Positions 15,946 to 40,284 of a stretch of 64,000 bases of DNA are shown here, piece by piece; the stretch's first letter is position 1, and each line of letters begins with the position of its first letter. The position numbers and the translations under genes are program-made. Under the pieces are notes generated by a model that worked only from the letters and a program-made list of their open reading frames with translations, had not been told where the DNA came from and did no database searches. The stretch lies in contig JAKTTT010000008.1 of the NCBI GenBank assembly GCA_030581615.1, positions 186,001 to 250,000 of the forward strand, written 5' to 3'. Source of the stretch: Alloascoidea africana. Its lineage: Eukaryota; Ascomycota; Alloascoideomycetes; Alloascoideales; Alloascoideaceae.

Positions 15946-17663
15946 TGTGACCATGTCGGTCACTAATTAATTATATTCACCTAAAATTACTCTTTTTTCG
16001 GCGGCTTGTTCTGCTCTTTTTGAATATTCGCTTAATTCGTCAGCTGTTTCCCCCCTCTTCGGTTGTAAAATACAGTAGATCTGTGATGCCATTTGGGTTA
16101 TATTGTAACGGCCTATACTAAGCCGCTCATGCATATGTACGTATCCATAGATCGGGGACTATATAGCTAGGCCCTTTCGCTGATCTTGGCGGTTAAGGCA
16201 ATCTTAGACTCAAGGAGTGACTCTAATACTATAACTATCTTCTCCTCCATCAAGCATTACGTGGAGGTCGTACCCGAGAGAGAATTTGGAACTGTACTTT
16301 CACTACTAACAGGTAATTTTTGTCACCGCTTCCTTGACCTACCCGGTTATTAATATTTGGCCTAAACCATCTCCTACTACCATAGTAGTGGACCTGAACG
16401 CGTTGACTCCATATCCCAAATCTTCTTCGAAGGATGATTGGACTCCAAGGCCAATTTTTGGTGTTTTGTGATGTGACCATGTCGGTCACATATTACACCT
16501 CCCGGTTTAAGATGATTAAACATTTATTTCGGGATGCTTTTTAGCATATTTTTGCAACATATCCGAGGCTGTTTTGCGGAGTTCGCTAAGCCGTATCCAT
16601 CGGAATGAGTTGTCAGTAAATTCCACTTTGATTGAGTATCCTCTTGCCTTTTTTTGGTGGTCTAAGATTTGTTTCAGTTCCATTTCTGTCGAGTTGTCTT
16701 TGTATCGTTTGTATCTCGGAGCTTCAGGTTCTGGGGCTTTAAAGCTGTTGTTTGGTACTCGATGTTGTCTGGATAATTGCGATATGTGAAAAACAGGGTC
16801 CATTTTGTAAGACGGTGGCAATTCTAATTCGTAGTTTACCGGTGACAAGGCCAATTTTTGGTGTTTTGTTGAGTACGAACTCTGCCGTTGGTATCAAGGT
16901 TGTCCAGTCTTTGTCGTTTTCAATATAAAGGCGGAGATACTCTTGTATTGTTCGTATTGTGCGCTCAACTTTTCCATTACTCACCACCAAAAATTGGCCT
17001 TGTCACCGGTAAACTACGAATTAGAATTGCCACCGTCTTACAAAATGGACCCTGTTTTTCACATATCGCAATTATCCAGACAACATCGAGTACCAAACAA
17101 CAGCTTTAAAGCCCCAGAACCTGAAGCTCCGAGATACAAACGATACAAAGACAACTCGACAGAAATGGAACTGAAACAAATCTTAGACCACCAAAAAAAG
17201 GCAAGAGGATACTCAATCAAAGTGGAATTTACTGACAACTCATTCCGATGGATACGGCTTAGCGAACTCCGCAAAACAGCCTCGGATATGTTGCAAAAAT
17301 ATTCGAAAAAGCACCCCGAAATAAAGGTTTAATCATCTTAAACCGGGAGGTGTAATATGTGACAGACATGGTCACATCCTATTTACTTTTCTTCACCTAA
17401 AAGCACCCTATTTCCTATTATTATGCTCTTAAACCTCATAGAGCATAATCTATCGTTAACACAAGTAGAATTACTTAAATAGTGTATTCATTCCTTAGAT
17501 AGAAAAACAAGAAATCATATCCATACTTTCTTACGATTAAACCTTTTACTGATTTGTTGTTCGCGTTCAACCACTTTAAACAACTGGCAACACGCTGCAA
17601 TGTCACGAAGCCATAGATACTTGGTGAGTTGATATCCTCAGACTCCGGCTAACCATTACTACA
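15946..17663. mobile_element. Fossil Ty3/Gypsy-type LTR element island (rearranged)
   Basis: A broken, rearranged Ty3/Gypsy relic. An LTR-like end beginning TGTGACCATG starts at 15946 (probable right end near 16311, TG...CA). A second LTR-like end beginning TGTGAC starts at 17358, just after the purine-rich tract AAACCGGGAGG, and may run to about 17663. Between them are two copies of the integrase C-terminal region (recognised by LPPSYKMDPVFHISQL), one on each strand, forming a large palindrome described separately. Only the last part of pol remains, and no gag, protease or RT is seen. The element is clearly dead, with many breaks. The fragment is old, but the palindrome is recent because its arms are almost identical. 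Confidence 0.75.
16470..17378. repeat. Snap-back inverted duplication 1 (Gypsy 3' end): 394-bp arms, 121-bp loop
   Basis: Arm 16470-16863 is the reverse complement of arm 16985-17378. Both are 394 bp, with no net indel and roughly 98% identity by eye. The loop 16864-16984 continues the integrase reading of the left (minus) copy. Each arm runs from the integrase C-terminus through the polypurine tract into the first bases of the LTR. The 24-bp sequence beginning CAAGGCCAATTTTTGG occurs at 16446-16469 and again at 16846-16869, exactly 400 bp apart, bracketing the left arm. Confidence 0.9.
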
Positions 17664-17968
17664 ACTGGAACGAGTTAATCTATTCACTTTCGCTAGATTT
17701 TAGGAAAAGATAATCGATTCAATGATCAAAGCAATTAATTTTAAATTCTTTGACAAGACTAAATTTGTTTTTACATGGAAGAATCTGTTAAGCGCTGAAG
17801 GGCTTTTTGTGCTTTAATCCATGTTTACATACTTGTCCGGGTAACATCATCTTTAATATGTATGTCACATGATTTTGAGTTTGCAGGTTTGGGAATTTTT
17901 TTTTCTTTAGGCTCATCTTGGGTTTTGGCATTGAAAAATTGAATCCCCACTCATAATTCTCTCATAAG
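17664..17968. promoter_or_regulatory. NOP15 upstream region
   Basis: AT-rich DNA between the Gypsy relic and NOP15. A T-rich tract lies at about 17,895-17,905. No further feature was recognised. Confidence 0.4.
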
Positions 17969-18813
17969 ATGGCAGGAGCAGTACGAAGCAAAAAGGTAAA
18001 ATTTGCCTCTACAGGTAAAGAGTCTGCGACAACGAAGAGTGCGGACTCAAAAAAGAAGGTAGTTCAAGAACAAGACGCTGGATTCTCCAGCAGTTCAGAG
18101 GATGACTTTGAAGGTTTTTCATCCACTGATGATGAGAGTGAAAGCGACAGCGAAGACGAAGTAGAGGAGGAACAGGAAGAAGCTGCCCCTGTACCTGATA
18201 AAAAGGACAAAGACAATACTGCTAAAAAGAATCAACGGCCTGACAAGGATTTGAAAGTGAGCACAGAGAAAGGAACGACAAAAAAGGAGAAAAAATCTGA
18301 TAAACGGGGTGTGATATATGTTGGGCGTATTCCACATGGGTTTTATGAAGAACAGGTATGCTTTAGTTGGTTTGTTTTAATTTGATTAAGGGCGAGGTGC
18401 TAACACATTTACTTCAGATGAAATCTTACTTCAACCAGTTTGGAGAAATAACGCGCCTGAGGCTATCTAGGAATAGAAAGACGGGAAAATCAAAGCATTA
18501 TGCATTTATCGAATTTGAAAGCAGAGAGGTTGCCCAAATAGCAGCGGAGACAATGAATAACTATCTCTTGTTTGGACACATTCTTAAAGTACGAGAGATT
18601 GAGCCAGAAAATGTCCACGAGGAGATGTTTGCGGGCTCTAACAAGTCTTTCAGGAAGGTTCCTTGGAATAGCATTTCAAAGTATAGGAATGACAAGCCTA
18701 AACTGGCCACGCGTTGGAAGATACTCAAGACGAAAGATACACAAACCCGAAAAGAAAGACAGAGCAGGCTAAAGGCTGCTGGAATTGCCTTCGATATATC
18801 ATCCTTTAAATAG
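17969..18813 (+). CDS. NOP15: Nop15-like ribosome biogenesis RRM protein (NIFK family)
   Basis: Exons 17969-18355 and 18418-18813 give 260 aa. An acidic, Lys-rich N-terminal tail (FSSSSEDDFEGFSSTDDESE) precedes one RRM: RGVIYVGRIPHGFYEEQ (RNP2) joined over the 62-nt intron to MKSYFNQFGEITRLRLSRN, then SKHYAFIEFES (RNP1). The region after the RRM (NNYLLFGHILKVREI, then GSNKSFRKVPWNSISK) is diagnostic for Nop15/NIFK. In yeast Nop15 binds ITS2 at the foot of the pre-60S particle and is needed for 27S pre-rRNA processing. The length is slightly above yeast Nop15, owing to the longer acidic tail. Confidence 0.9.
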
Positions 18814-19248
18814 CGGATTGTACGTAATTATAGTTCAACAAAGAGCTGTCCCTGGTATTGTAAAGATCTTTATTGTAGGTAGTAGAGCATCCTGTGTTAG
18901 AGTATTAACCACCTTCAAGGGTCTATATGATTCTGTATGAGCTTTGAGTGTTCACGGTAAGGTTTAAAACGTCTATCACAAGTGATTTGAGTGTTACCTT
19001 CGTTATCAAGTGATTGGGGAAAAAGTGACCCGGTTCTCCCCATCTGGGCCGGGCGGAGAGGCCGTTGTCAGCGCTTAAAGGAAGACCACTTTTTATCCCG
19101 ATTAGGACAAGGTTACCGGAAAAGACCCGATTGCAGCCACCGCTCGGTACCTTTTAACTGATATCAGATCAGACTAATGAAAGATGGGGTATAAATACAA
19201 AAGCCTGCCTTATCTCTTCTGATCCTTTTCTCTTCTTCATATCCAGCC
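18814..19248 (+). promoter_or_regulatory. CYB5 promoter region with TATA box
   Basis: A 435-bp spacer. TATAAATA at 19190-19197 lies 59 bp before the CYB5 start and is followed by a pyrimidine-rich leader (TCTTCTGATCC). A short GC-rich patch is at about 19,045-19,075. Confidence 0.55.
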
Positions 19249-19868
19249 ATGTCCGAAACGATCACCGTCTACACCGAGGAGGAAATAGCGAAGCACAACA
19301 CAAGAGATGATCTGTGGATGGTAATTCATGGGAAAGTCTACAACTGCACACCATTTCTTGACGAGCATCCGTATGTGTTAGCATAGATTCATGGGTGATC
19401 GCGCTTCTTGTCTAACAAAGCTGGTACAGAGGCGGAGAGGAAATGCTAGTCGAGTGTGGCGGCATGGATGCAACAGAAGCATTCGATGTAAGTTGAAGAG
19501 ACAGTTCAGACTAAAGTCTGCAGCGACTAAACCAAAACAATGTAGGAAATTGGACATTCAGAAGATGCCGTTGAGATGCTGGAACCGCTACTTGTTGGAA
19601 TAGTAGAGAAGAACGTAAGTGACAGGCACAAATACCTTCATTTTCGTAAGCCCGAAACTAACGCCGTGGTTGACATCCAAAGGCAATAAAACCAGGAAAG
19701 ACAATAGAAGAGCCAGTTTCTGGCATACCTTCGTAAGTTTTTTACAAGTTTTCTACCAGTTATTTGGGGTCGTTTGAATGATTACTCACCGACCATCTTA
19801 GATACGCAATTTACCTCGCACTCTCAACCATAGGTGTGGTTGCAGCATATCTATACAGCCACAGATAA
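19249..19868 (+). CDS. CYB5: Cytochrome b5 (ER, tail-anchored)
   Basis: Five exons (19249-19370, 19430-19487, 19546-19614, 19683-19732, 19802-19868) give 121 aa. The heme-binding core is complete: [20 protein letters not shown] supplies the first axial His and [12 protein letters not shown] the second. The last exon encodes the tail anchor [18 protein letters not shown], followed by SHR at the lumenal end. The protein donates electrons to ER desaturases and sterol enzymes. The first intron splits the conserved HPGG codons, and all junctions are canonical. The gene converges on the Maf gene with a 96-bp gap. Confidence 0.93.
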
Positions 19869-19964
19869 AGCCCTCCTTGGTCAATATACCATTTGATCTG
19901 CCTTTCCTATCTTTACTATTATTTGTTAAGTAATGAATACATTTGATGTTTGAACGTAGTGTGG

Positions 19965-20739
19965 CTAATGTTCAAGTAGAGCTTTCTCCAGTAGCAAATA
20001 TGTTCCTCTCAATGGAAGTCCTACCACATTACAGAAATCTCCAATGATTTTCTTCACCATTATTCCACCCAATTGTTGAATCATAAAGCCCCCGGCAACG
20101 TTTAGGCCTTCGCCGCACTCTACATAATCTTTGAGAAAACCGTCCGATATGGTGGGATCAATGTGAACTTCCGTTTCTTCTGATTTTAGATATGTAGTGT
20201 AGGACTCCCCGTTGGAAACCAGCACTGCGGTTCCAGTGATGACTCTGTGGATACCTTCACCATCGTCTCGAAGACTCTGGAGCATCCGCAAGTGGTTCTC
20301 GGGAGTTTTGGGCTTCTCGTAGATTCTCCCTTCACTTACCACCACTGTATCTGCAGAAAGAATAACATCGGTTTTTTCTCCCTTTGCTCTCTTCGCATGC
20401 TTCATGTGAGTTCAGTAGCCTTAAATGAGGTACACATTTAGTAACTTACCAAAGTTTCAAATACATCAATTGCCTTTTCCAGTGCTGTTTTTTCCACATA
20501 CTATAAAACCACGTTAGTCTGTGATTCCAGTAAAGCCATATCAGGCTAGATAAGTGCAAACGAACCTGGTTGGGAGTTATATTGGATTTATCAATATTTT
20601 CTTCAAACGTTGAAGGTATGACCTCAAAATTGTGAATGCCCATCTGTCTTAATATGTCGCCCCTCCTTGGAGAGGATGAAGCAAGAACGAATCTTTTGCT
20701 TCTTAAAAGTGATAGCAATGGTGTATCTAACGGTGGCAT
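19965..20739 (-). CDS. Maf/Ham1-like nucleotide pyrophosphatase (Maf family)
   Basis: Exons 20739-20566, 20500-20450 and 20399-19965 give 219 aa, the normal Maf size. The N-terminal motif FVLASSSPRRGDILRQMG is the nucleotide-binding loop. EKTALEKAIDVFETL joins over a 50-nt intron to the catalytic strand DVILSADTVVV. Then come HRVITGTAVLV, EGLNVAGGFMIQQLGG and NVVGLPL, all standard for the family. Maf proteins hydrolyse non-canonical or modified NTPs to monophosphates (house-cleaning), releasing pyrophosphate. The second exon is only 51 nt. An ATG embedded after the last intron could mislead gene callers into a 146-aa product. REC8 ends 133 bp upstream on the same strand. Confidence 0.88.
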
Positions 20740-20872
20740 CACGATGGATAGATCAGGTAGCGAGGCTGACGGTTGAATAATCGTTTTCTCGGTTTTACAA
20801 ATCAGGTCCCAAACACCAAAAGACCCAACTACTATGAATCATTTCTGACGCTACGTGTTTTCTATAAACTAC

Positions 20873-23016
20873 TCATTTTATCAAGTACACCCCAAAATCC
20901 ATTCCACTGAGTAAGCCGGTCTTATTCTTGTTTCGGGAATCGATACCGATGACGCCCTTGGACGTGAGGAACAATATTGAACTGAATGCGGATGCTGCAT
21001 CTTTCCGGGTTGATGCCTCCCCATTTTTTTTCGTAATGGTGGAAGGTACCATCCCTTCGAAGCGCAAGCACTTGGTTTTACCGCTTTGAACAGGCCCCTG
21101 AGCTTCAATTTTGGTTCTTAAAAAGTTGAGGAACTGAGCTGCATGTTTTCCGTAGTAGTTTGCCATCAATTGTTTTTCAGTTTTTGTCTGAGAATCAAGA
21201 TCAAGCTCTAATATTTTGGTTAGAATTCCGACTGATTTGCCATGGAACACAACACCTTACCGTCGTTCTCCTCCACCATGAGATCTCTTATATTAGTCAT
21301 TCCTGAGCCTCTTCTGTCTCCAAAGCCAATGCTAGGACTTTTACTCCCAAAATTTTTGAGAAATGAGTGACTTCCATATCCCCCGGAGCCAAGCACTGAA
21401 ACATCATTTGAAGTTGAAAGCTCGAAATTGAAATCAGCATCGTAGGATTCCCCCGAGTCTTGTAGTTCCATGACGTTGTCTAAATCCTGGTCCAAACCAG
21501 GCAAGTGCGGCATGATACTACTTCTGGAGAGATGGCTCAATCGACTGTTCCGCCAAGCTTCTACATCAGTGCTTTCTCCACGAATAGCTTCGATGCTTTC
21601 TCTTCTTTGAAGCGTAGCAGCGAGAGAAGCTGCCTGCTCGTTTTCAACGTTTGTTTTTCCGTTTAACAACGAAAAGTTTCCAGGTGGTAATGTAGACTCA
21701 GTCTGCCAATGTTCTGAAATCTTTTGGAGATAATTCTTTGATTTTCTACGCTTTTCAGATAGAGATTTCATATTGTGCAAATAGTTATCACGGAATGATC
21801 TTAGGGAATCTGTAGTGAGAATTGTACTCTTATCCCATTGTGGGTTTAGCTTAGCTTTTTTTGAAGGTTTTGCCGCCCCATGTTCATTCTCTTCTGCCCT
21901 CTGTTTCCTTTGCATTTCAAACAAAATACTGTCCTTCTGGGTATTGTTCATCTCCAGAGAATCAAGATCGGGTATAAGATCTGGTAGCTCGATATGCTCA
22001 AGGTCATCGCTCTCATCAAATGGTCGTTTCATATTGCTGGTGGAATCCACAGACTGATCTTTTTTTGAGGTAGAGATATCAACGATTTGGCCGTCATTGC
22101 CAAACTCGAAAAGTACTTCACCGCTAAAGGTATCGTCGGGGTCTAGAGTATCTGTCATTTTATATAAACCAGAGTCTAGAAAACGAGAGTCGGCGTAATT
22201 AGAGGTATCATCATCAAACGAATCCAATGAAGGCAAAGAAATATTGTGATTCAAGGATATATTGTTTAGTTTCAACGAATTGGCATCGAGAATTTGGATA
22301 TCTTCGTGTTTATTAGATTCGAGAGAAAAACCAGGAAATAGGTCAATCTCAACTTGGAATAAGGGATCATCTTGGAGTAATGTCAAAGAGGATCTATTAT
22401 TGTGATTTAAAAAAGGCGTTAGTCAATCATAAGCTGCTTGGCAAAAAGGCAATTAACTGGTTTACATCTTCGAGTTAACAGGTACTCTTGGATTGGTAAC
22501 TTTAGGTTTTCCCATCTCAGTTTTGGAATGGATCGATTTGCTCAGCTTGGATCTTGCGTTCGCCGCATCAACTGCCCACATTTTCTTGTCAGTTTTCAGA
22601 TATTCCAGGTGTTAATTGGTATTCAAAATTGCTCAATACTTACCATAAAAATACTTTAATTGCTGACAATAAGCAAGAGTTATTCCATAAAGCAGATTAG
22701 AGCTCAATCTTAATGCTAATGGAACGGGAGGGTTGGTGACGCTGTTGCATGCTTTTGTAACGGAGACAGCCAGGATATCCTAAATAAAGAAGTATTAAAA
22801 GAGCTAAACAACAAAAAATTGAATCATAGACCATCTGTTTCATTATTTTACCTTTTTTGCGACTTTCTTATATGAAGATTTGTAACCAAGAGTTGAAAGT
22901 AACCTATTGTCAATGAATTAGACACAACACTACCCTTGTCATGTTGAAAAGGGTCATTACCAGACTGTAGCAAACTCTCCTTTGCCCGTCATCAGCAATT
23001 CCTCGGTGAAAAACAT
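20873..23016 (-). CDS. REC8: Meiotic cohesin kleisin Rec8
   Basis: Six exons (23016-22961, 22903-22852, 22779-22644, 22571-22466, 22393-21261, 21207-20873) give 605 aa. The N-terminal kleisin domain contains FATVWLLSTLGYKSS, VAKKDILAVSV and PLALRLSSNLLYGI. The pattern TLG...KKDI...LALRLSSNL is closer to fission-yeast Rec8 than to Scc1. The long middle exon is acidic and disordered. The C-terminal winged helix has YYGKHAAQFLNFL and ASAFSSILFLTSKGVI and would bind Smc1. Rec8 closes the cohesin ring in meiosis and is cut by separase. The final intron sits just before the winged helix, and reading through it yields a premature end. The copper-fist gene diverges 333 bp upstream. Confidence 0.88.
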
Positions 23017-23349
23017 GGTTATATATGTCTAAAATAATAAAACAACTGCGACGATTTCTGATCCAGATGAATATTGAAGAAGAGGAAGAAGAAAGTAAAA
23101 GATACAATACACTGATCTTATATGCAAGAATCCTAAACGGGTTGAGGTACTACATTTACACACAGTGCGTATATCTCAGTACCAACCGATCTCTACTCAT
23201 CACTCTTCGTCCCAGAAAATGCGTCTCTTGTGCTTCACCATCTCACAATTTGGACCTATAGCAAAAAGTTAACGGCACACCACCACGCTAATTGGCAAAC
23301 AAAAGGCCTGTATTTGTTCCATTATATTACTCTGTACCAAGCTGTAACC
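23017..23349. promoter_or_regulatory. Divergent promoter region, REC8 / copper-fist gene
   Basis: A 333-bp spacer between divergent starts. GAAGAAGAGGAAGAAGAAAG lies near the REC8 end. I could not recognise a specific meiotic or metal-response site with confidence. Confidence 0.4.
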
Positions 23350-24790
23350 ATGGTTGTAATCGAAGGTGTCAAATATGCTTGCGAGGTATGTATGAGCGCA
23401 ATTTTGTCTGCTTCAACTATCACCACTTTCGTTTTCTATTTTTGTATTTCTTCTTGTTGAGTTTTGTTTCTTGTATATTGCAAGATTATCTAACCATACT
23501 GGAATGTTTTAGCGATGTATAAGAGGTCACCGAGTTACTACATGTAATCATATGGACCAACCACTATTTGTGATCAAACCAAAAGGAAGGCCCGCTTCCC
23601 AATGCCAGCACTGCAGAGAAGGCAGAAAAAGCCGGTCATTGCATTCTAATTGTGCCTGTGGTAAGAAATCCCCAGGTGCAGGCCACTCGTGTGCTTGCCG
23701 GACTGGAGCGAAATGCACTTGTGGACCACGGAGAAAGCCTCGCTCATCTAGTGCTAGAAGAAACAATACCCCTATGTCTCAACCTGATACCACTCCTTTA
23801 AGTGAAATCATAGAACCAATACATAAATCTAATTCGCTGAAGGACGTTGGAGAGCTTGGCCGAAGTGAAATGCCGCCCCCAGGAAACCCGAGCCTGAATC
23901 CGAGCACGGAAATCAAGAAGCACAATGCACTCAGATCGCTTCTCCAAGAAGATCAGCAACTGCAAAGAGGAAGCTTATTTGGAAGTGCCAGTATATCAAA
24001 CGTTTCATCTCCATCTTCAAGTTCTTCTACTCCAAAATCAAAGTACTCCTGTCACTCTGCCACTACAAGTTGGACCGCGCCTAGTGAGTCATGGTTCTCT
24101 TCGCCTGGGTCAGATTACCCCAAGAGACAGTTATACAAAAATTCGACATGGCTAGATGATCAAGCCCGGATGCAACAGGTAGGAATGGAGACCTTGTCTA
24201 CTGCGAAACCACTTACTCCAAACACACAACCACGAGCTGGTGAGATTACTGTTAACCTGGATGAATATCCCTTAGGAGATGGAGAGCTGAACTTCGATGC
24301 AGGCTTCCCTTCAGACTCCAATATCAACCTGGAGCAGGGCGGCCTATTAGACATCCTCTCTGAGGACAGTAATACCAATACGGATTATTCCAATACAAAC
24401 AGTTCATCGGGATCGTCTGCTCTAGCAGCAGAAGGAATGTTTCCACTTTTGCCTTTATTTGGAAATGGATTCTCTTCGGACTCTAATACGAAAAACATTC
24501 AAACAAATGGTAAAGGGAAAGAACGCGCCTCGTTTCAAGAATCTACAGGTCAGAGTAATGACAATGGAAAAATCAAGATGGATAATCAACAAAAGCCTCT
24601 TGAGTTTTATCCAAGTAGTCATCCGATTAACGAAGAAATGTTTCTACAAGACTTTAATCCTTTAGATTTTGGTTCTTCTGCCTTTGAGAACGCTTCGTAC
24701 CAGACAAATGTACCGGATGGGAGTAATCAATATTCAACAGAAATATTGCCCATGACACCATCATTTCTGGATCTCCAAAATTTCAAATAA
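23350..24790 (+). CDS. Copper-fist transcription factor (Ace1/Haa1/Cuf1 family)
   Basis: Exons 23350-23385 and 23513-24790 give 437 aa. The copper-fist domain is complete only after splicing: MVVIEGVKYACE joins RCIRGHRVTTCNH. It supplies Cys11, Cys14, Cys23 and His25 for zinc, and KPKGRP at 34-39 for minor-groove contact. It is followed by CQHCREGRKSRSLHSNCAC and then CACRTGAKCTCG, giving paired Cys-x-Cys motifs like the Cu(I) cluster of Ace1 and partly kept in Haa1. The rest is Ser/Asn-rich with acidic patches, consistent with an activation domain. No C-terminal Cys-rich repeats of the Mac1/Cuf1 type are present. This favours a copper-induced activator or a Haa1-type acid-stress factor over a copper-starvation sensor. 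The 127-nt intron is the longest in the window. Confidence 0.85.
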
Positions 24791-25352
24791 AACACTACCC
24801 ATTTTTTTTCTGGTTTACAACTTTAAGAGACACGTTTGGAATGATTTCAGTTTTTTTTTTTCTATTGGTTTTTCTTTTGATAACGCGCATTTAAAACAAA
24901 AGCTTACGAATGAGGCTTGTATACTAAGGCACAGTATATGTATGAGGTACCAGTTAGACATGATATTGATGGTTAAGATATGGTATTCTTATAAAATATG
25001 ATCCGCATCTATTTTAGAAATAATGAAATTAAAACATTCTGTAAAAATGATTAGTCAATCTCGGGGCTAAAGGTTTATATGCTGAGGCAAAACGCTAAAA
25101 AACGTGATATGGAGAGCTAGTATTGAGGTGTCCGTATCGCGGAAAGGGGCTTCATAACCTGTTGAAGGGTGAGTGTGGCGATGTGCAGTGTGGACCCGTG
25201 GAACTAGGAAAGGCTATCACGAATGTGGTCAGACTAATGAACACGAAAGGAATAGGGAGTCGAAAGCAGCTACAGAGAGAGATCTAAAGACTATGTCGTA
25301 GATCTGAGCACGAAGTAGAACTGGGACCAAAGAGCATGAACTCTTCTAACAT
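24791..25352. other. AT-rich flank, no gene seen
   Basis: 562 bp downstream of the copper-fist gene with T-rich tracts (24803-24811 and 24851-24861). Beyond about 25,040 the sequence grows less AT-rich toward the helicase relic. No reading frame is supported. Confidence 0.5.
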
Positions 25353-26306
25353 AAACTCAACGTAAGGGATATTTCTCCTATGTCTCGGAGCTCTCTCACA
25401 ACGGCCTCCATTAAACTAGCAAAGGGTATAACGGCGCTTGTAATCATTTCCGGGATTCTGTCAGAACTGGAAGCTGCCAAATCACAGTTTTTCCAGATCC
25501 CGTGGGCATTACAGCAAGGACAGAGGAGTGCTGGGCCAAATAACACTCCATTGTCGCGCCCATTTGTTCCATACACCCGAACTTGAACCCGGGTCCAAAT
25601 ATCGCCTTTCCCGACTCTTTCAGGTCATTTCCTGAAATGATTTGACTTGTGGGTTCGGGTGTCGTATATGTCGGTACCCGGTCCTCGGTCCCAACGTGTT
25701 GTTCGTTTTCGTCATACCTCCCCAACCCAATCCTTTGCGCCCAACGATTCACGACAACATTCAAAAGGTCGGATATTTGGATCAGGTCCCCGTCTGTCCC
25801 ATCAACTTGGAGGCCATACACCAAGAGAGTGTGACCTGCACTTTTCCGGACAAATTCTAGAGCCATATCTCAGACCTGTTGAATATTGTTGTGGATCGTT
25901 GGGCGCAAAGGATTGGGTTGGGCGGTATGACGAGAACAAACAACACATTAGGAGCGAGGACCCGGTACCGACATATACCATACCCGAAGCCACAAATGAA
26001 GTTATTTCAGGAAATGACCTGAAAGAATCAGGAAAGGTGATGTTTGAACCCGGGTTCAAGTTCCAAAGCATGGAGCAGATGGGTGCGACAATGGAGAGTT
26101 ATTTGGCCTGGCACTCTATCCTTGCTGTAATGCCCACGGGATCTGGGAAATCTGTCGTTTGGCAACTGCCAATTATTACAGAAAGCCGGAAATGATTACA
26201 CGCGCCTACGGTGCTTGTAACTATTCTGGTTATACCCTTCGTTAGTTTAATGGAGGACGTTATGAGAGAGTTCCGAGACATAGGAGAAATCCCCTACGTT
26301 GAGTTT
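25353..26306. pseudogene. RecQ-like helicase fragments in inverted arrangement
   Basis: Two copies of the same helicase N-part lie head to head. The minus copy (about 25866 to 25353) and the plus copy (25867 to 26306) both read GRYDENxQH, ISGNDLKESGK, MEQMGATME and then the Walker A box AVMPTGSGKT/S, followed by WQLP. After a frame break each shows a motif-Ia-like FxSLMExVxRExRDIGEI. Motif I plus QLP and SLM resemble RecQ-family helicases, including the multicopy RecQ-like genes of fungal subtelomeres. Nothing beyond motif Ia is present, so neither copy can be functional. The parent family is uncertain: it could also be cargo of a DNA transposon. Confidence 0.65.
25353..26306. repeat. Snap-back inverted duplication 2 (helicase): arms about 424 and 440 bp, loop about 90 bp
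   Basis: Arm 25353-25776 pairs with arm 25867-26306. By eye the arms are about 84% identical with a few indels, making this the oldest of the five palindromes. The loop 25777-25866 extends the minus-strand copy only. Both copies read outward. Confidence 0.8.
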
Positions 26307-26565
26307 AGATCCGGGCACGACCTCCATATTATATGTTTGTTGCTTTGTATTAATAAGATACAAATAACAGTCTAAACTGAGCTTTTCCTCTTCACTAGAA
26401 GGGGAAAAGTCTTCCTTGTACATTCGTAACTTTCAACTAAACCTTTCCTTTGTGTTCTAGTTTGTATGAACTAAGATACTTTGTAGCCTTTGTATGGCTC
26501 ATAGTATCTTGCACATAGCAACCTTAAAACATAGACGCTAAAAGGAGCATATAGGCCTTGGAAGG

Positions 26566-26605
26566 TGTTAGGTTACGTGAACGTATAGCTCCCCGAACCC
26601 TTACA
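26566..26605. mobile_element. 40-bp LTR-like relic with 5-bp target duplication
   Basis: The segment begins TGTTAGG and ends CGAACCCTTACA, so it has TG...CA ends, and it is flanked on both sides by GAAGG (26561-26565 and 26606-26610). The last 12 bases equal those of the 146-bp solo LTR at 38261-38406, which also begins TGTTAG. It is read here as an internally shortened solo LTR of the same family. Confidence 0.65.
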
Positions 26606-26610
26606 GAAGG

Positions 26611-32189: not shown

Positions 32190-33004
32190 GTCGGTTGGAG
32201 TTGGCTTGTGTGAGAGAGCAGAGCGCTGGAGCAGGGTATTATACACCAGAGAGAAGTTGAGGTTGAGGCTGATTGACTGATATCGATAGCGAGGGTTTGT
32301 TTGAGTGAATGAGTGAGTGTGATGAATCTGCCAGATCGAGTCGATCTGAGGGCACGTGATGTGCATGAGTAAGCGGTTGCCTAAGCAGTGCGTTTCTGCT
32401 TTTTTGGTTTTTGTTTTTGTTTCTGCTTCTGTTGCGGGAGGTCCGGCCACCCGAGCCGAGCCGAGACGGCCTGGCCGCAGCAGCTCGGGCTCAGCTCGGG
32501 CCAGAGACAGCTCGGGCCAGAGAGAGCAGGGCTTCGGGGCTGCCGGGCATGGCCGGGTGACAGGGCATCGGGGAGGTTGCGGCTCCACGCCTGGCTGCCG
32601 GCTGGAGACGAGCAGAGCAGAGCAGAGAAGAGCAGACAAGAGGGATGGCCCATGGCCCATGGCCCATGAGCCGTGCTCCCGCCCTCGCTCGCGCCTTCGC
32701 TCGCGCTCGCGCTCGTCCTCGTCCTCGTCCTCGGCAGGCCCCGTCGCAGCGGCTCTTCCTCGGTCCAGGGCACGCGGCAGCGGGAGCCACCTGAGCAAGA
32801 CCGGGGCGGCCAATGGGAAAGGGCGGGAGCTAAGCACTGACCCCAGCGAGAAGATCAGTCCATTTCAGCCCATTTTTCATATGAAGCGCCCGCACCCCGG
32901 ATCGAACCCCTCCCTGGTCTCTTATAAAACCCTTCTGCTCTCACCTCTCTCCCAGCTCTTCTTCATCTTCTCGCCACCCCTTCCACCCCGAACTCTCCTG
33001 ATCC
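32190..33004. promoter_or_regulatory. GC-rich divergent promoter region, RAD54 / OSM1-b5, with TATA box
   Basis: Three simple-sequence blocks lie here: GCAGA-type repeats at about 32614-32640, a CATGGCC triplication at about 32645-32668, and CGCTCG/TCCTCG repeats at about 32685-32735. Stretches of 400-650 bp are open on both strands, which I attribute to composition. TATAAAA at 32923-32929 lies 76 bp before the reductase start and is followed by a pyrimidine-rich leader. Confidence 0.6.
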
Positions 33005-35148
33005 ATGGCTCTCCCCAATAACTTTGTCATTGTCGTAGGCGGCGGTCTCGCCGGCCTCTCTGCTGCTCACCAGGTCCTCCTGAACGGCGGCAATGTCGTC
33101 GTGGTCGACAAGCAAGGTACGCAACATACCCCCACGAGCCTCTGCTCTGCTCTGCTCTGCTCTGCTCCACCCAATTCACGACATCACTAACGTTGTGGAC
33201 AACTTAGGCTTCTTTGGCGGCAACTCTACAAAGGCCACCTCCGGCATCAATGGTGCTCTCACAAGAACCCAAGTCGGTACGTATCTGCAAACTCAATTAA
33301 CTGTCTCTTGGTTCTCCTCTAATGTCCAATCTCTTAGACTTGGAAATTAGAGACTCTGTACAACAGTTCTACGAAGACACCGTCAAGTCCGCAAAGACAC
33401 AGGCAAGACCAGATCTCATTAGAGTCCTGACCTACAATTCCGCCGCAGTAAGTTAACTTTTGTGTTTATGTTTCAAAAATCGCCATCCCTGCTGACATTT
33501 TTTTTCTTTTCTTTGTTTTGACTTGTCTCAGGCTGTGGAATGGCTACAAGACATTTTTGACCTGGATCTCACTCTCGTCTCCCGCCTGGGTGGACATTCC
33601 CAGCCACGTACTCACAGAGGACACGATGCAAAGTTCCCAGGAATGGCAATTACCTATGCACTCATGGAAAAAATTGAAAACCTGTCAGAGTCGAATCCCG
33701 AAAGAGTTGCAGTTTTGAAGAAAAGCCGCGTCACCTCCTTGATCAAGGACGGCGCCAATAAAGTTACTGGTGTGGAGTATGAACACGAAGGTAAAACCTA
33801 CACTCTAAATGGACCTGTGGTTTTGGCAACAGGAGGTTACGCCGCAGACTTTACAAACGACTCCCTTTTGAAAAAATACAGACCCGATGTCTATGACCTG
33901 CCTTCCACAAATGGTGTCCACGCAACTGGTGATGGCCAGAAAATGGTTATTGCTGCAGGCGGCGGTGCAGTCGATCTGGATAAAGTTCAAGTCCATCCAA
34001 CAGGCCTCGTGGACCCTAGAGACCCCGAAAACAAGTGGAAATTCTTGGCTGCTGAGGCCTTGAGAGGTGAAGGCGGCCTCATGCTTAACTCCAAGGGTAA
34101 CCGATTCTGTGACGAACTTGGAACAAGAGACTACGTTTCCGGAGAAATGTTCAAGACCACTTTCCCCATTCGGCTTGCCTTGAACAAAAAGGCTTCCACA
34201 GCTTTGGACTTCCACACAAAGCACTATGCAGGGCGAGGCTTAATGAAGAAAATTACAGGACAGGAACTTGCAGATGAGATTGGCTGCGGCGCAGACCATC
34301 TCAGAAAGGTCTTCAAAGAGTATAACGAAATTGCTGCTGGCAAAAAGAAGGACCCTTACGGCAAAAAGTTCTTCCATAACGGTCCTGTTGAGGTTGATGA
34401 TGACTTTTACGTTGCTCTAATCACCCCAGTGCTCCATTTCACAATGGGTGGTGTTTCAATTAACGACAAGGCGGAGGTTTTGGACAATGATGGCAAGGTC
34501 ATTGAAGGTCTATTTGCAGCTGGTGAGTTGGCAGGAGGCGTCCACGGAGCAAACCGACTTGGTGGTTCTTCTCTGCTTGGATGCGTGGTCTACGGCCGTG
34601 TTTCCGCTGACACTGCTTCCAGTTACTTGTTACAGACCTTGTCCAACAAAAAGACTGGTGAGTCTGCTGCAAACAGCCGTCTTGGTCAGCTATCCCTGCA
34701 CATTGACCCATCTGCTCCACAACGGGTTGTCATTGACTGGTCTTCCTCGGCTTCTTCTTCTGCCGCCGGCAATGGCGGCGTTTCCGCCGGTGCCAATGTG
34801 GTAGGTGGTGTAGAGCCATCCCAGGCCACCGCTGTCGAACCCGTTTCAGAAGCACCTGTTGCCTCCAAACCCAAAGAATTTTCCATTCCAGATAAGGAGT
34901 TTACAGTTGAAGAAGTTGCCAAGCACAACAAAAAGGACGACTGTTGGGTGATCCTCAAGGGCACCGTGCTTGACCTGACCTCGTTTCTCGAGAACCACCC
35001 TGGAGGCGTCAACTCGATTGTCAATTTTGCAGGAAAAGAGGCCACAGAAGAATTTGAAATGTTGCACGAGGACCGTGTGATTCCCAAATATGCTGCAGAG
35101 TGTGTTATTGGGCGGGTCAAGGGTCAGACACCCTCGTTTGAGTTTTAG
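33005..35148 (+). CDS. OSM1: Soluble fumarate reductase with C-terminal cytochrome b5 domain
   Basis: Exons 33005-33116, 33208-33276, 33338-33447 and 33532-35148 give 635 aa. Residues 7-30 hold the FAD dinucleotide motif VIVVGGGLAGLSAAHQ. The flavoprotein core continues with GGNSTKATSGINGA, GGHSQPRTHRG, VQVHPTGLVDP, VLHFTMGGVSI and HGANRLGGSSLLG, all typical of Osm1/Frd1. These enzymes reduce fumarate to succinate with FADH2 and keep redox balance and oxidative protein folding when oxygen is low. After a Ser/Ala/Gly linker, the last 80 residues form a cytochrome b5 fold with DLTSFLENHPGGVNSIVNFAG (first heme His) and EMLHEDRV (second). Yeast Osm1/Frd1 lack this domain. FAD binding starts at residue 7, so there is no long presequence. 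Confidence 0.92.
33148..33168 (+). repeat. CTCTG short tandem repeat in OSM1 intron 1
   Basis: About four copies of a TCTGC unit lie inside the first intron of the reductase gene. Confidence 0.6.
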
Positions 35149-35465
35149 TCTAGCCCTTTTTACATGTTTCTTTGTAGACGTTTTGTTTAGTTTAGAACCC
35201 TTAAGAAAGAATAGTAATGTATGAGATAAGGTATAATTTATTTGCTCTGTTGAACTGCCATACACAGTAATAATTTGTTATTACTGATTGGTCTTGATGT
35301 GACTGAAATGCTGAGGATGGAGAAGAAGCCAGGCACATGAAAAATTATGAAAAAGCTTGTGTACATCACCACCAGTATGCGAGCAAAAACCACCATGTGA
35401 GAAATCCAAAGATAAAAAAAATTGTTCATGAAAAACAGAACAAATCTATTGATAAAATTAAAATT

Positions 35466-35526
35466 AAAAGAAAAAGAAAAAGAAAAAGAAAAAGAAAAAG
35501 AAAAAGAAAAAGAAAAAGAAAAAGAA
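35466..35526 (+). repeat. (AAAAAG)n microsatellite
   Basis: About ten tandem copies of a 6-bp AAAAAG unit, nearly perfect. It gives a spurious Lys/Arg frame. Confidence 0.9.
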
Positions 35527-35555
35527 ACAGTGTTTAGAGCTCTTTTCTTTTATAG

Positions 35556-35801
35556 ATGTCTCAGCCATTTTCTGGCTTGATATGGAATTATATGGACCAA
35601 GTCATCACAGTATTCGATTCATGGTCATTAGTTTCTCATCGCTTTTTGCCACAATTCACCCATCTCATCAATTACGTGCCTTCTAAAGTCTACCACAGTT
35701 ATTTCTCTGTTTCTGTAGTCTGGTTAATTTTTTTGCTCTTGGATGCGGGCTACAGCACTTCAGTTGGCATGTTGAAAAAACTTGAATCTTTTAATCTGTA
35801 A
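35556..35801 (+). CDS. Possible small membrane protein, unrecognised (81 aa)
   Basis: An ATG-started 81-codon frame beginning MSQPFSGLIWNYMDQ follows the microsatellite by 29 bp. Its second half, YHSYFSVSVVWLIFLLLDAG, could span a membrane once. I do not recognise it. It lies at the edge of a mobile-element graveyard, has no clear promoter and no introns, and may be a chance frame or a relic. Low confidence. Confidence 0.2.
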   Translation: MSQPFSGLIWNYMDQVITVFDSWSLVSHRFLPQFTHLINYVPSKVYHSYFSVSVVWLIFLLLDAGYSTSVGMLKKLESFNL

Positions 35802-38123
35802 TATGGAAGCTTTTGTGCATATTTCCCAAAACAGGTTTCAAGAGATTTTATAGCATCTATAATTGGAACTGGACAGCTGCTGTGATGCCTTCTGGTTTAT
35901 CTTTTAGGACAATTCAGAGATATATATCTGACCTGCTCAAACTTTGGCGACTTTGAGATCTGACAAGAGGAGTAACCTCTTTTTGAAGTTGGAGTAATGC
36001 ATCATCATCATCACCTCCAACCTTCAGACTTCAAAACCACTTTTTTTGCATCAAATATGAACAACTTCTTTAAAAGCCGATTTTGATATTATTTTCCGCC
36101 AGAGTAAATACAATAGAGGTTTAAAAGACCGAGGGAAAATTTCAATACTGCGCTGATGTCGAACGCAACCTTTCGCACTGGAGAACTGTCACAAGTTTTT
36201 CGATTTCCAAGACTCCATTGATCTCCTTTCAGATTTGAGTCCTTCCTATCAAAAGGAAAATGACCAAGTTATAGATATTATTTGACCAGCTGGTATACTT
36301 TGTAATTGTGATCTGCCACACCCATACCAACTGTGAATAACGATTGAATCTTTGTATTTTGAGTCACAGGTGATTACGTTTCGTGGTGTCTTAAGCTCCA
36401 GTCTCTTTATTTGGACAATTGATATTCTGGATATTTTGAGGAATAGTTGATGAAAATCGTAACAACAAAGGATGTAGGATTGTTTGTTGATGTGTTCAAA
36501 CAAGTCTGTATTGATATTGTAATCAGATATAAAGATAGTCCATCTTGAGCATTAAAAGGGAAATTAAGTCCTTTCAGATTTGTAAAACAACACTTGACAC
36601 TTTCTTTTGTACTAGAGTCAGCGTAATTTTAAGAGAATAACTGAGTTGAAGCTGGGGCGATTTGCTAGTAACTTACAGGTTTCTTAACAAATTACAAGAT
36701 CGTGCTAGTCATATAGCAGAGGCTAGCACAGATGGTGAACCAGTGATACACATTAATTCGATAATAAAATGGATCTACAGTTCAATTGATCACAGACCTG
36801 TCCATAAGAAGGGATTGTTTTTTTGGTTAACCGTCTCTAGTACAGCTGTTGATTGTCTGACTCATCCGTATTCTAACAATCTTTCTTCTATAGCAATAGA
36901 TATTTGTCCCTCGCTGACCTCAGGTGAAACCAAAGATTTGTTTCCCAACAATCACTATGGCCCATAATTAAGCTCCCGCGCTATAGTGTTTCCCCACTGT
37001 GGAACCATCCCTGTAATTATCAGAAACCATATATTGGTGTAGTATCTGACTGATAACGTATTAGCGTCTCAATTCTAAACTACGTAAACCCCCAGAACAA
37101 CCACTACACTCTTTCTTTAGTGGTTTTACTCAATCTTGCATACGCGACCTCGTATTACCCCGAAACATAACTTCACTTAAATAGAGCATGTATTTGCTAG
37201 ATAGCAGATCAACAAGTTTGAATTCTCCTCGATCACTTAACATGACCTTTCCCACACTTCCTTTCCTCGCTCGCACATGCTACAGTTGGGGAGCAGAAGT
37301 AGTTAAGCTGACTTTAGTAACAGTATTGCTCCAACCCCCTCCTATTCCAAGACTAAAATGAGCAAGAAAAAAGGAATGGAAAAGAGATGGCATATAGTGT
37401 GTCATTGGAAACCTAGAGCAATCTATCCCAGATATGGCCAGACTAACAATCACAAAAGGATCCGGAGAGGAAAACTATGGGATCGCTAGCAGTCTAGCTA
37501 AGGAACGATCCTGAACATCTGAGAACAGAAGAAAAACAGGCGCAGAAAGATGTATTTCTTCTTGCCTTGTGGAGACTTCCGCTTTGTTGATTGTGTAAGG
37601 TGCTGATGATTTTTGCTGGATTAAGCGAGCATGGTCCGGTTGTAAACGCCCAGTAATTCCTATCATTCGAACGAACACCTAGGTAGGCTTACCAGGGTTG
37701 TCATATGTAAACGGGCGCTTATTTCGTTGGTGTGATATTCCACAATGTAAACAAAAGGTGTTGTTGGTCCTCATTACTAGACCTTACTGTGTTAGATGTT
37801 ATAGTGGGAGTGTCAAGATAGAATCTAGTTTGTATTCCTAAGTAAATACAGTGCCCCGCAAAATGCTCAAATACTTTTTCAATTATCTTTTGAAGCACCA
37901 CCACATCATTTCTATAGTAAGGAATTAATTTGTTTTTAGTCGGATAGTATAGCCTATGGATCTAAGATTATATTTCGGTAAGAAGTTGTAAGATAGTTGG
38001 CAAGAAGGAGTACATTTGTAAATAGGAGATGTGATTCTAGTATGTCTAAAGTTTGACCTATCCAATCTAGAAGAAGGGCATGTTATGTATATGATGTCGG
38101 GAATCTTCACCAGGCTGGTGTGT
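35802..38123. other. Gene-poor AT-rich region, unrecognised debris
   Basis: 2.3 kb without a supported gene. Short frames at 36249-36503 (minus), 36662-36967 (plus), 37475-37678 (minus) and 37719-37904 (minus) have protein-like composition but no motif I can name. Given the neighbours, decayed mobile elements are the likeliest source. A short A/T-rich hairpin-like region near 36,000 has repeated CATCATCATCA. Confidence 0.4.
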
Positions 38124-38260
38124 GTTTATATTATACAAATTACATTATTATCACTCGCGATGTCGTGACTTCTATTCAGGGCTTTACCCTTTAACTGGCC
38201 CAAATAGCTTTTGCCAGTCTTACATAGTTCTTTCTTAGAATATATAAAAGATCTAAACTC

Positions 38261-38406
38261 TGTTAGCCTTGGATGGGTGATCTCCTCTCTCTCTAGTAGT
38301 GAGGCTTAGATAGGTCTATATAAGTAGCCCATCTGGTCCCCCTTATGGGGGCCTGATCAACGATTCTAGTGTTGTTTGTAGCCTCACACCTTCTCGAACC
38401 CTTACA
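38261..38406. mobile_element. 146-bp solo LTR with 5-bp target duplication
   Basis: TG...CA ends (TGTTAGCC ... GAACCCTTACA) are flanked by AACTC at 38256-38260 and 38407-38411. A TATATAAG box lies at about 38317-38326 and a CCCCCTTATGGGGG palindrome at 38338-38351. The matching position in the right arm of palindrome 3 has a single AACTC with no insertion, so the empty site is preserved in the window. No internal region remains. Confidence 0.82.
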
Positions 38407-38464
38407 AACTCGTACTTCTGAGTTTAGATCTTTAGTGCTTACACTTACAATAAAGATTACTGCT

Positions 38465-38760
38465 TTCTTGTTTAACAGCTACAACTATTATGGCCGCGAG
38501 AAGAACTTTCCCGACAATTATAAAGGAATTCTTCTTGGTTATCAAAATTCTAACAAAATTGTCTATGCATTGCTGAGCTCTGGGAAAATTGTGAAAAGCT
38601 CATCATTACCTTCAGAAGAGCCAGGGAATTTCTTGGGCTGAGCAATGCATAGACAATTTTGTTAGAATTTTGATAACCAAGAAGAATTCCTTTATAATTG
38701 TCGGGAAAGTTCTTCTCGCGGCCATAATAGTTGTAGCTGTTAAACAAGAAAGCAGTAATC
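38465..38760. mobile_element. Fossil Ty1/Copia pol fragment, both strands
   Basis: A short piece of Copia-type pol from the region between integrase and reverse transcriptase. It is recognised by YKGILLGYQNSNKIVYALL and a following SSGKIVKSS and is present once on each strand in the arms of palindrome 3. It is a truncated, non-functional fossil. Confidence 0.5.
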
Positions 38761-38868
38761 TAATTGTAAGTGTAAGCACTAAAGATCTAAACTCAGAAGT
38801 ACGAGTTTAGATCTTTTATATATTCTAAGAAAGAACTATATAAGACTGGCAAAAGCTATTCGGGCCAG

Positions 38869-39255
38869 TTAAAGGGTAAAGCCCTGAATAGAAGTCACGA
38901 CATCGTGATTGATAATAATGTAATTTGTATAGTATAAACAGATATGCACTGTGTCGCGTTGGGAGTTTCTAAAGAGGAAGTCGCTGAGATTGCTGGTACT
39001 TCCTTTGATATATTTGAGTTGTAGGTTGTAGGGCAAAATCTCTGCCAGCCAGCGTAGTTGTTTGGCGCTGGGGGACTGGTGGTTGAAGATATCGACTATT
39101 GGTTTATGGTCAGTCTCTAACAAGACTGAAGGTTGATCTTGGATGAAATACTTGAACTTGCGGAGGGCGTATAGGACAGCGAAGAGTTCCTGGTCGATCG
39201 TAGACCATTTGATTTGGAGGTCTGTTAATTTGTGGGATCGGAATTCGATAGGCTT
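38869..39255 (-). mobile_element. Fossil Ty3/Gypsy RNase H fragment
   Basis: The minus strand shows the RNase H region of a Gypsy pol: IEFRSHKLTDLQIKWSTIDQ, then LETDHKPIVDIFNH and LQLKYIKGSTSNLSDFL. Only this part of the element survives; it is broken and old. It runs into the right arm of palindrome 3 at its 3' end and forms the left arm of palindrome 4 at its 5' end. Confidence 0.75.
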
Positions 39256-39514
39256 TCAGGTATTGTTGTACCATTCTTGGGCCTGTCGTCTGCAACATCC
39301 AGCGCCACGCCTTTGAATCCACCAGACCTTGCAAAATAACTACCGATGCCTCAGGATTCGCGGTAGGAGCTGCTCTTTGGCAACTCTACGGCAATACCTG
39401 GAAACCTATCGAATTCCGATCCCACAAATTAACAGACCTCCAAATCAAATGGTCTACGATCGACAAGGAACTCTTCGCAGTTCTCTACGCCCTCCGCAAG
39501 TTCAAGCATTTCAT
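39143..39514. repeat. Snap-back inverted duplication 4 (Gypsy RNase H): 123-bp arms, 126-bp loop
   Basis: Arm 39143-39265 and arm 39392-39514 are reverse complements of equal length, about 93% identical by eye. The loop 39266-39391 extends the plus copy upstream (TTDASGFAVGAALWQLYG, the start of RNase H). Both copies read outward. Confidence 0.85.
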
Positions 39515-39530
39515 TGACGAAGCTGGAATC
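39340..39530 (+). mobile_element. Fossil Ty3/Gypsy RNase H fragment, plus-strand copy
   Basis: The plus strand reads TTDASGFAVGAALWQLYG, then KPIEFRSHKLTDLQIKWST and KELFAVLYALRKFKHF. This is the first half of a Gypsy RNase H domain and the partner of the minus-strand copy at 38869-39255. It is truncated at both ends. Confidence 0.75.
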
Positions 39531-39975
39531 TGTTGGAGAACTAGAACTAGAGACAATCAAACGCACCATTTATGCTTAACAGCCCTCACTATTACCCTAC
39601 CATCACGTGCCACTCAGAGGTCACGGGATTAGCTGATCTGGACTACCATCCAACACAAAAGTCACGTCACGGGGTTTTTGCACACATTGTCAAAAACAGG
39701 GAAAATGGGGGGTTTAAAGCTGGTGTAGCGGGTTCAATTTTGGGTGGTTGCTGATGAAAAGAGAGATTTAGAGACTGCACTAAACTGCCTATCTAATGAT
39801 ACCAATATCTAAGATATATCTGTTCTGTGGAGCCCTCAATGCACCACTCACCCATACACCCGGTGCTTTGCATGGACGAACAGGTGTGTCTCAGCAGTCG
39901 CGAAGCTATCTTCAGAAGTTGGAAGTGTCTCTTAACGCGTGTCCTTCTCGACTTTTTCACCTTCACGCGTTCCTC

Positions 39976-40284
39976 CAGTTCAGGGTCCTCCTCTTGGTCT
40001 GGCAGTTCGGCTGAGATGATCTTGTCGATCTGGGTGCCTACTTTTAGACTGTCATGAGCAATTTTTGAGAGGAAAACCAGTAGATGAACATGAGGCAAGC
40101 CTCGTTTTTGGTACTCTAATGTCCTAATGTGTCCAATACATTGGAGTACCAAAAACGAGGCTTGCCTCATGTTCATCTACTGGTTTTCCTCTCAAAAATT
40201 GCTCATGACAGTCTAAAAGTAGGCACCCAGATCGACAAGATTATCTCAGCGGAACTGCCAGACCCAGAGGAGGACACTGAACTG
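39976..40284. repeat. Snap-back inverted duplication 5 (Helitron Rep): 147-bp arms, 15-bp loop
   Basis: Arm 39976-40122 and arm 40138-40284 are reverse complements of equal length, about 96% identical by eye, with a loop of only 15 bp (40123-40137). Both arms carry the Helitron Rep block RGLPHVHLLVFLSK and read outward. Confidence 0.9.

Follow-up and report, generated by a model that had tools for sequence, protein, structure and literature searches.

In Naumovozyma castellii, palindromic loci yield 74.1% of the siRNA reads that map to loci, and many of the loci that produce the most siRNA are palindromes (PMC7528652). Two further systems are Mu killer of maize, in which part of a transposon gene is duplicated in inverted orientation and a read-through hairpin RNA has been proposed (PMC3440606), and the seven large inverted repeats of Trypanosoma brucei (422 to 10,011 bp, with nearly identical arms), which are siRNA sources (PMC3447711). 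The palindromes analyzed here, five of which lie in the window (a 64-kb stretch of Alloascoidea africana DNA), resemble the N. castellii loci in their long inverted repeats, their potential hairpin transcripts and a genome that encodes Argonaute and a two-dsRBD RNase III. Most of them are recognisable mobile-element fragments, and their siRNA output is putative. Like Mu killer, several are partial inverted duplications of element coding sequence, but Mu killer, as its source presents it, is one locus against one element, whereas here there are many loci, several element classes and a predicted silencing. Compared with the T. brucei repeats as reported, these candidate siRNA sources are shorter and more numerous, and they differ widely in age. 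The analysis documents their anatomy and the RNAi genes of the genome. A description of genome-wide element-derived palindromes in a fungus was not recognised in the literature searched, a coverage that excludes most subscription papers.

Twin priming of LINEs produces 5′ inversions, in which an inverted 5′ part is joined to a sense 3′ part in divergent orientation. The palindromes described here share the joining of an inverted to a sense portion and the divergent orientation, but they involve LTR, Helitron-like and helicase fragments rather than LINEs only, 7 of 24 are convergent, and no target-site duplication was seen around them.

Anatomy of the window palindromes

All five palindromes proposed in the original prediction were recovered, within a few bases of the positions given there, and the window has no other inverted repeat at E < 1e-3. 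Direct repeats at E < 1e-6 were absent from the window, and its self-comparison revealed no sequence common to two or more palindromes. Pal1 (16470–17378), derived from a Gypsy-type 3′ end, has arms of 394 and 394 nt that are 99% complementary, with 121 nt between them; it is divergent, its right arm being sense, and its Pfam match (SH3_Tf2-1, 8.7e-7) lies slightly below the cut-off. Its left flank (15992–16469, (−) strand) is a further segment from this Gypsy internal region, interrupted by ~308 bp of inserted sequence, and ends in a 24-bp sequence that is repeated at 16846–16869, beside the loop. On the right (17379–17599, (+) strand), the sense arm runs on into the LTR, collinear with a relative at C68 that lacks the palindrome, and comparison of the two makes serial template switches readable.

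Pal2 (25352–26307) is a divergent palindrome of a helicase-like fragment, with 426 aligned positions (86.6%) interrupted by indels. It had been called RecQ-like, and even the helicase label rests on a Pfam score below the curated cut-off (DEAD, 4e-5); in the genome search, the DNA of Pal2 matched only itself. The convergent Pal3 (38123–38940) had been read as a Gypsy/Copia junction and consists, folded, of a complete LTR (~203 bp, TG...CA) joined to a fragment that resembles integrase. This fragment has a match on contig C107, where Copia-type RT matches also lie; as the LTR could not be placed in a family, the Gypsy/Copia reading may or may not hold. Both outer ends of Pal3 are LTR starts, and its arms pair over an outer 138 nt (96%) and an inner 46 nt (100%) plus 125 nt (99%). 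A weak Pfam hit of its frame (Syntaxin-5_N) looks like chance, and no credible match was found for that frame. Within the left arm lies a solo LTR of 146 bp (TG...CA; 38261–38406, (+) strand), flanked by a 5-bp target-site duplication, AACTC, at 38256–38260 and 38407–38411; judged from these signatures, it is a later insertion that split the arm. Elsewhere, this LTR occurs in at least 17 near-full-length copies (84–95%) and at least 3 partial ones.

The remaining two palindromes are both divergent. Pal4 (39143–39514) consists of Gypsy-type RNase H sequence (RT_RNaseH_2, 6.8e-19) in arms of 128 and 128 nt (93%), the left of which runs on outward in the same element to about 38941. Pal5 (39976–40284) has arms of 147 and 147 nt (97%) separated by 15 nt, and the reading frame of its right arm continues outward to about 40455. 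Its assignment to a Helitron Rep, as first proposed, depends on a Pfam score below the curated cut-off (Helitron_like_N, 1.7e-4), and the genome search found this family nowhere but in the two arms. Exactly equal arms, claimed for four palindromes, were found in Pal1, Pal4 and Pal5. The arms of Pal2, at 432 and 448 nt, are unequal. As the equality stems partly from ungapped alignment, it carries little weight.

Recurrence of palindromes across the genome

When 24 stretches of 10 kb, chosen arbitrarily from this genome, were searched, we found 4 further palindromes, located in 3 stretches, and no direct repeats by the same criterion. Extrapolation from these stretches gives about 390 palindromes genome-wide (95% confidence interval [CI]: 105 to 989), a count that omits L026 and L003, which were found because they resemble Pal1, three rows that duplicate Pal1 or L026 (L001, L002 and L005), and an L011 hit of 100 nt that is weak (69%). 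Three rounds of Markov shuffles of the 24 stretches yielded 0 palindromes by the same criterion, which excludes a chance origin. At the DNA level, inverted loci outnumbered direct ones 9 to 0. Three retroelement domains gave 117 matches, of which 32 stood in opposite-strand pairs over the same domain part and 7 in direct pairs; among the kinase matches listed, checked by eye, 0 of 132 were in inverted pairs. The original reading of recurrence, which hinged on an excess of such palindromes elsewhere, holds, since they occur both in the 24 stretches and among the domain-match pairs.

Element identity is weak for three of the four sampled palindromes (L023 1731–2734, L023 3207–3812 and L013, all lacking a credible Pfam match), and the fourth scores below the Pfam cut-off. 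By eye and recall, we take L023 1731–2734 to be Copia RNase H and L023 3207–3812 to be SWIM-like; the L013 hits (DUF4931_C and LYRM_2) are weak and look like chance. Over 11 palindromes, including the five of the window, arm identity ranged from 74% (the decayed L013) to 99%, and the loops in the palindrome rows measured spanned 15 to 152 nt, the alternative L003 row excepted. In Pal1, Pal4, Pal5, L026 and L023 3207–3812, the element sequence of one arm extends beyond the palindrome, and two palindromes, Pal3 among them, are bounded by LTR starts at both ends. Partial inverted duplication of element coding sequence was found above the Pfam cut-off in Pal4 and L003 and below it in Pal1, Pal5, L026 and L015. 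The predicted RNA was near-completely hairpinned in 10 of the 11 palindromes. These data support the view that the process is recurrent and affects several element classes.

Proposed template switching and rival explanations

We consider it about an even bet that the palindromes are template-switched element fragments that form natural hairpin loci usable as siRNA precursors in an RNAi-competent fungus, probably one of budding-yeast-like type. A polymerase copying an element or its cDNA would switch template and fold back, so that an element fragment would gain a partial inverted copy at one end; the anatomy supports this, and supports its repeated occurrence throughout the genome and in different classes of element. 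The initial notion of a recurrent DNA-level process is upheld in its recurrence by the 74–99% arm identities; the fold-back itself may have taken place on chromosomal DNA or on reverse-transcription intermediates. Its companion claim, independence from any one transposition mechanism, is plausible given the several element classes hit, but the same pattern would result if a reverse transcriptase copied element mRNAs of whatever kind. Strictly divergent polarity, as from snap-back cDNA, fitted the first 8 readable cases and failed on later convergent domain pairs, Pal3 and L003. The overall ratio of 17 divergent to 7 convergent is not significant (p = 0.064), and polarity was dropped as proof; this total includes C70 (profile overlap of 8 positions, below the cut of 10), treats C21, a complex locus, as a single convergent case, and omits L013, whose sense is unreadable. 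The divergent excess and the LTR-start ends of two palindromes are a hint that points to cDNA.

A somewhat less probable but serious competitor is that error-prone reverse transcription or repair makes inverted fragments that persist between genes as neutral debris, with any siRNA incidental and unselected. It accommodates the lack of wobble bias in arm mismatches, palindromes without relatives (Pal2 and Pal5), the decay of L013 and the element termini at two palindrome ends. However, it leaves the inverted excess (9:0 loci; 32:7 protein-level matches) unexplained, unless the copying error itself consists in folding back, or loss is quicker for direct repeats. Side-by-side insertion of two related elements in opposite orientation would suit loosely spaced pairs such as C10 (442 bases apart) and C21 (55–705 bases), but it is very unlikely, also for the five window palindromes: apart from the alternative L003 row, arms abut across short loops, both arms derive from the same part of the element, and matching direct pairs are absent at the DNA level. 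Fold-back chimeric reads, an assembly or library artefact, could have produced Pal1 and the inner Pal3 arms, which are 98.5–100% alike, whereas the remaining arms differ by 3–26% and a solo LTR with its target-site duplication sits in one Pal3 arm only; the span of arm identities and this later split make assembly chimeras most improbable. We assign an equally slight chance to a foldback or MITE-like transposon moving as a palindromic unit, which would share the long inverted repeats and short loop, but the window palindromes have no common sequence, Pal2 matches only itself, and no target-site duplications were seen by eye in 11 flank pairs. Nor was any whole palindrome seen as several scattered copies flanked by target-site duplications.

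Possible role in RNA silencing

The genome encodes a single Argonaute as far as found, closest to yeast KpAGO (2e-101), and three RNase III proteins, each with two dsRNA-binding domains. The presence of these genes, which the original prediction had left to be checked, lends support to its RNA-silencing idea. The architecture of one RNase III domain and two dsRBDs is of the Dcr1 type, and Dicer activity is predicted from it; the three proteins score higher against Ribonuclease 3 chains than against K. polysporus Dcr1 and may thus be processing enzymes. The genome search gave no RdRP match, but the control genomes gave none either, so this result does not show absence. RNAi without RdRP needs another source of dsRNA. 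In the template-switch reading, we infer that transcription through a palindrome would give a long hairpin RNA, that a Dicer-like RNase III would cut it into siRNAs, expected at 22–23 nt as in budding-yeast palindromic loci, and that these would load on Argonaute and cleave the mRNA of related elements. In the least secure step, palindromic loci would be kept because they restrain elements.

Related elements are present elsewhere in the genome for Pal1 and Pal3; candidate targets are, for Pal1, a match with an exact run of 54 nt and, for Pal3, copies of the LTR, up to 96% identical among the matches listed. None was found for Pal2 or for the Helitron domain of Pal5, and these two may have no target left, given their lack of other matches. 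Selection for arm pairing is not visible, as A:C-type mismatches are as frequent as G:U-type ones (94 versus 89; p = 0.77; Pal3 included only in part). In C. albicans, an inverted-repeat construct did not silence (PMC7175516).

A bolder and rather doubtful proposal is that the hundreds of dispersed hairpin loci form a heritable RNAi memory of past and present elements of any class in an RdRP-lacking fungus. The loci would then parallel the piRNA clusters of animals, with Dicer as their basis, and the Helitron-like and helicase hairpins would be the last trace of vanished elements. More modestly, element scraps held as mirror copies may feed the silencing of mobile elements. With about a quarter of its retroelement-domain matches in inverted pairs, this genome could show where hairpin precursors come from, and it would make testable whether selection favours palindromes as a defence against mobile elements or whether they are side products of copying errors.

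Inverted duplications in the window and across the genome

When the two strands of the 64-kb window were aligned against each other, six rows passed E < 1e-3. Every one of them came from five inverted duplications (pal1 to pal5), and the palindromes claimed in the original prediction are present where it had placed them. Specifically, pal1 (16470-17378; Gypsy-type 3′ end) has arms of 394 nt with 99% identity, pal2 (25352-26307; helicase-like) has 426 aligned positions, with indels, at 86.6% identity, and pal3 (38123-38940; LTR and integrase-like) consists of three arm pairs (138 nt, 96%; 46 nt, 100%; 125 nt, 99%). The arms of pal4 (39143-39514; Gypsy-type RNase H) and pal5 (39976-40284; Helitron-like Rep) measure 128 nt (93% identity) and 147 nt (97% identity), respectively. 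Same-strand self-comparison of the window revealed no direct repeats at E < 1e-6. The left arm of pal3 alone is interrupted by a 146-bp insert that starts with TG, ends with CA, and is bordered on either side by AACTC (38256-38260 and 38407-38411), with at least 17 near-full-length copies (84-95% identity) and at least three partial ones elsewhere in the genome. This insert is a solo LTR that arrived in a palindrome already formed, and it makes an assembly artefact less likely for the pal3 locus.

We then sampled 24 arbitrary 10-kb stretches of the assembly (23.2 Mb, 138 contigs), excluding L026, a stretch chosen for its relative of pal1. Under a fixed criterion (arm ≥60, span <4 kb, E ≤1e-8), four palindromes were found, two of them in stretch L023 and the others in L013 and L015 (one each), with 21 of the 24 stretches containing none. 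Neither direct repeats sought in these stretches by the same criterion nor palindromes sought in three rounds of their Markov shuffles were detected, and the window itself yielded six rows, i.e., five palindromes, and no direct repeats. Four palindromes per 240 kb correspond to ~390 genome-wide (95% confidence interval: 105 to 989); the window is enriched relative to this rate (P = 0.005 for ≥5), although it was selected for its palindromes. Palindromes are also present in arbitrary stretches and are not confined to the window, which extends the observation from 25 kb to the genome.

A strand-aware search uncovered 117 retroelement-domain matches (38 RVT_2, 46 RVT_1, and 33 RT_RNaseH_2), which are not independent, as certain elements match more than one family. 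Inverted pairs, defined as matches on opposite strands, within 1 kb, and with at least 10 profile positions in common, accounted for 32 of the 117 (8, 14, and 10, respectively) at 14 places including pal4, and direct pairs for 5, 2, and 0. None of 20 rve matches belonged to either kind of pair. Among kinases, a host family, none of the 132 matches listed lay in inverted pairs (by eye; 119 of 222 candidates scored), and the difference from the retroelement domains gave a Fisher P of 2e-12 for matches that are not independent. Many retroelement-domain matches were only a few kb away from the start of a contig (C1, C9, C14, C22, C35, C60, C92, C95, and others), a pattern that might reflect assembly breaks at repeated elements.

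Among the 11 palindromes with sequence, pal4 and that of L003 (a stretch reached via its likeness to pal1) passed the Pfam cut-off for an element domain, and pal1, pal5, L026, and L015 had element-domain matches below it. At the DNA level, pal3 is linked to LTR copies; pal2 is helicase-like; and L023 1731-2734 looks by eye like a Copia RNase H. The Pfam domain search gave no element assignment for L023 3207-3812 or L013. Evidence for an element origin is good for most palindromes, with those from the 24 arbitrary stretches having the weakest.

Anatomy and origin of the palindromes

In pal1, pal4, pal5, L026, and L023 3207-3812, a single arm extends outward as the same element or frame, a layout that is an element fragment plus a partial inverted copy at one end. 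Compared with a non-palindromic relative on contig C68, the left arm of pal1 has a 333-bp deletion (between 16846 and 16848), which should precede the inversion because the arms pair across the deletion point. The left flank of pal1 is a further piece of the same Gypsy internal region; its junction with the left arm is marked by a 24-bp sequence (16446-16469) repeated at 16846-16869. The structure requires several template switches inside one element. LTR-start sequence lies on both outer ends of pal3 and of the L003 palindrome, and inspection of 11 flank pairs by eye revealed no target-site duplications. Sequenced palindromes with readable sense were divergent in 8 cases and convergent in 2 (p = 0.11); for the full set of 24 places, the figures were 17 divergent and 7 convergent (p = 0.064).

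Template switching is supported as the origin, on a template of either cDNA or chromosomal DNA. Arm identity spans 98.5% to 74.4%, indicating repeated events over time unless the arms were homogenised. The original prediction of a recurrent fold-back or template-switching process stands as to template switching and recurrence, and its interpretation as a whole is partly supported.

Breakpoints in and around pal1 (15939-15999, 16470-16497, and 17351-17449) and L003 (1646 and 2371) cluster at a Gypsy LTR start, which contains a short palindrome of its own and is a possible fold-back hotspot. A dispersed repeat (25180-25352) stops exactly at the start of pal2, and its 85% similar copy at L015 6672-6846 is also close to a palindrome. 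Another (37034-37284) is shared with L023 793-1060, again near palindromes, and with L027 6086-6279.

RNA-silencing genes and hairpin potential

The original prediction had suggested looking for Dicer and Argonaute genes, and one Argonaute and three RNase III proteins with two dsRBDs were found. A single Piwi-domain match was found, within a long open frame that also encodes PAZ and ArgoL1 domains; among solved structures, the product of this frame is closest to KpAGO (2e-101). RNase III gave five matches, including three paralogues (L007 on C2, L008 on C35, and L009 on C6) that each combine RNase_3_N with a single RNase III domain and a pair of dsRBD stretches. Two dsRBDs are the layout of Dcr1. 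This layout suggests Dicer activity, which is putative because chains named Ribonuclease 3 were the best matches, with K. polysporus Dcr1 lower. By eye, the RNase III signature is kept in two paralogues and lost in the third (L009). The remaining two RNase III-like proteins (L010 on C79 and L011 on C2) are alike, two copies that by eye resemble mitochondrial ribosomal proteins. A genome search for RdRP had no match; as control genomes gave none either, this result does not show absence. The Argonaute and RNase III proteins suggest that the fungus is probably a budding yeast or a near relative of one. The paralogue lacking the signature is paralleled by the Dicer-like protein of C. albicans, apparently inactive according to a report in which an inverted-repeat construct also failed to silence in that species (PMC7175516).

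Predicted RNA folds are near-complete hairpins on either strand for 10 of the 11 palindromes (−0.60 to −0.90 kcal/mol per nt), including a 318-bp perfect helix in pal1; the exception, L013, is decayed. Candidate siRNA targets are a relative with an exact run of 54 nt for pal1 and, for pal3, LTR copies with identity up to 96% among the matches listed. Arm mismatches were about equally often of the A:C type (94) and the G:U type (89), pal2 matched itself alone in a genome DNA search passing over common words, and Helitron_like_N matched only the two arms of pal5, both below the cut-off. This mismatch balance, pal2 without a relative, and the solitary pal5 arms count against function as silencing loci. 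Hairpins without a partner are expected from immune memory but also from neutral debris, an explanation under which any siRNA output would be incidental and which we regard as a serious, if somewhat doubtful, possibility.

These inverted repeats have known counterparts: in N. castellii, inverted repeats are many of the top siRNA producers, with 74.1% of locus-mapped siRNA reads (PMC7528652); in T. brucei, all seven large inverted repeats give small RNAs (PMC3447711); and in maize, Mu killer derives from a transposase gene by inverted duplication and forms a hairpin (PMC3440606). Compared with these, the present palindromes seem new in number and in their spread over element classes, and the literature covered, with most subscription papers outside its scope, held no report of the like in a fungus. 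As putative siRNA sources, they would act like those three systems. In the favoured explanation, fold-back template switching turns mobile-element fragments into hairpin loci in an RNAi-competent fungus, where such loci are probably usable as siRNA precursors; we give this reading as a whole about an even chance, ahead of neutral debris.
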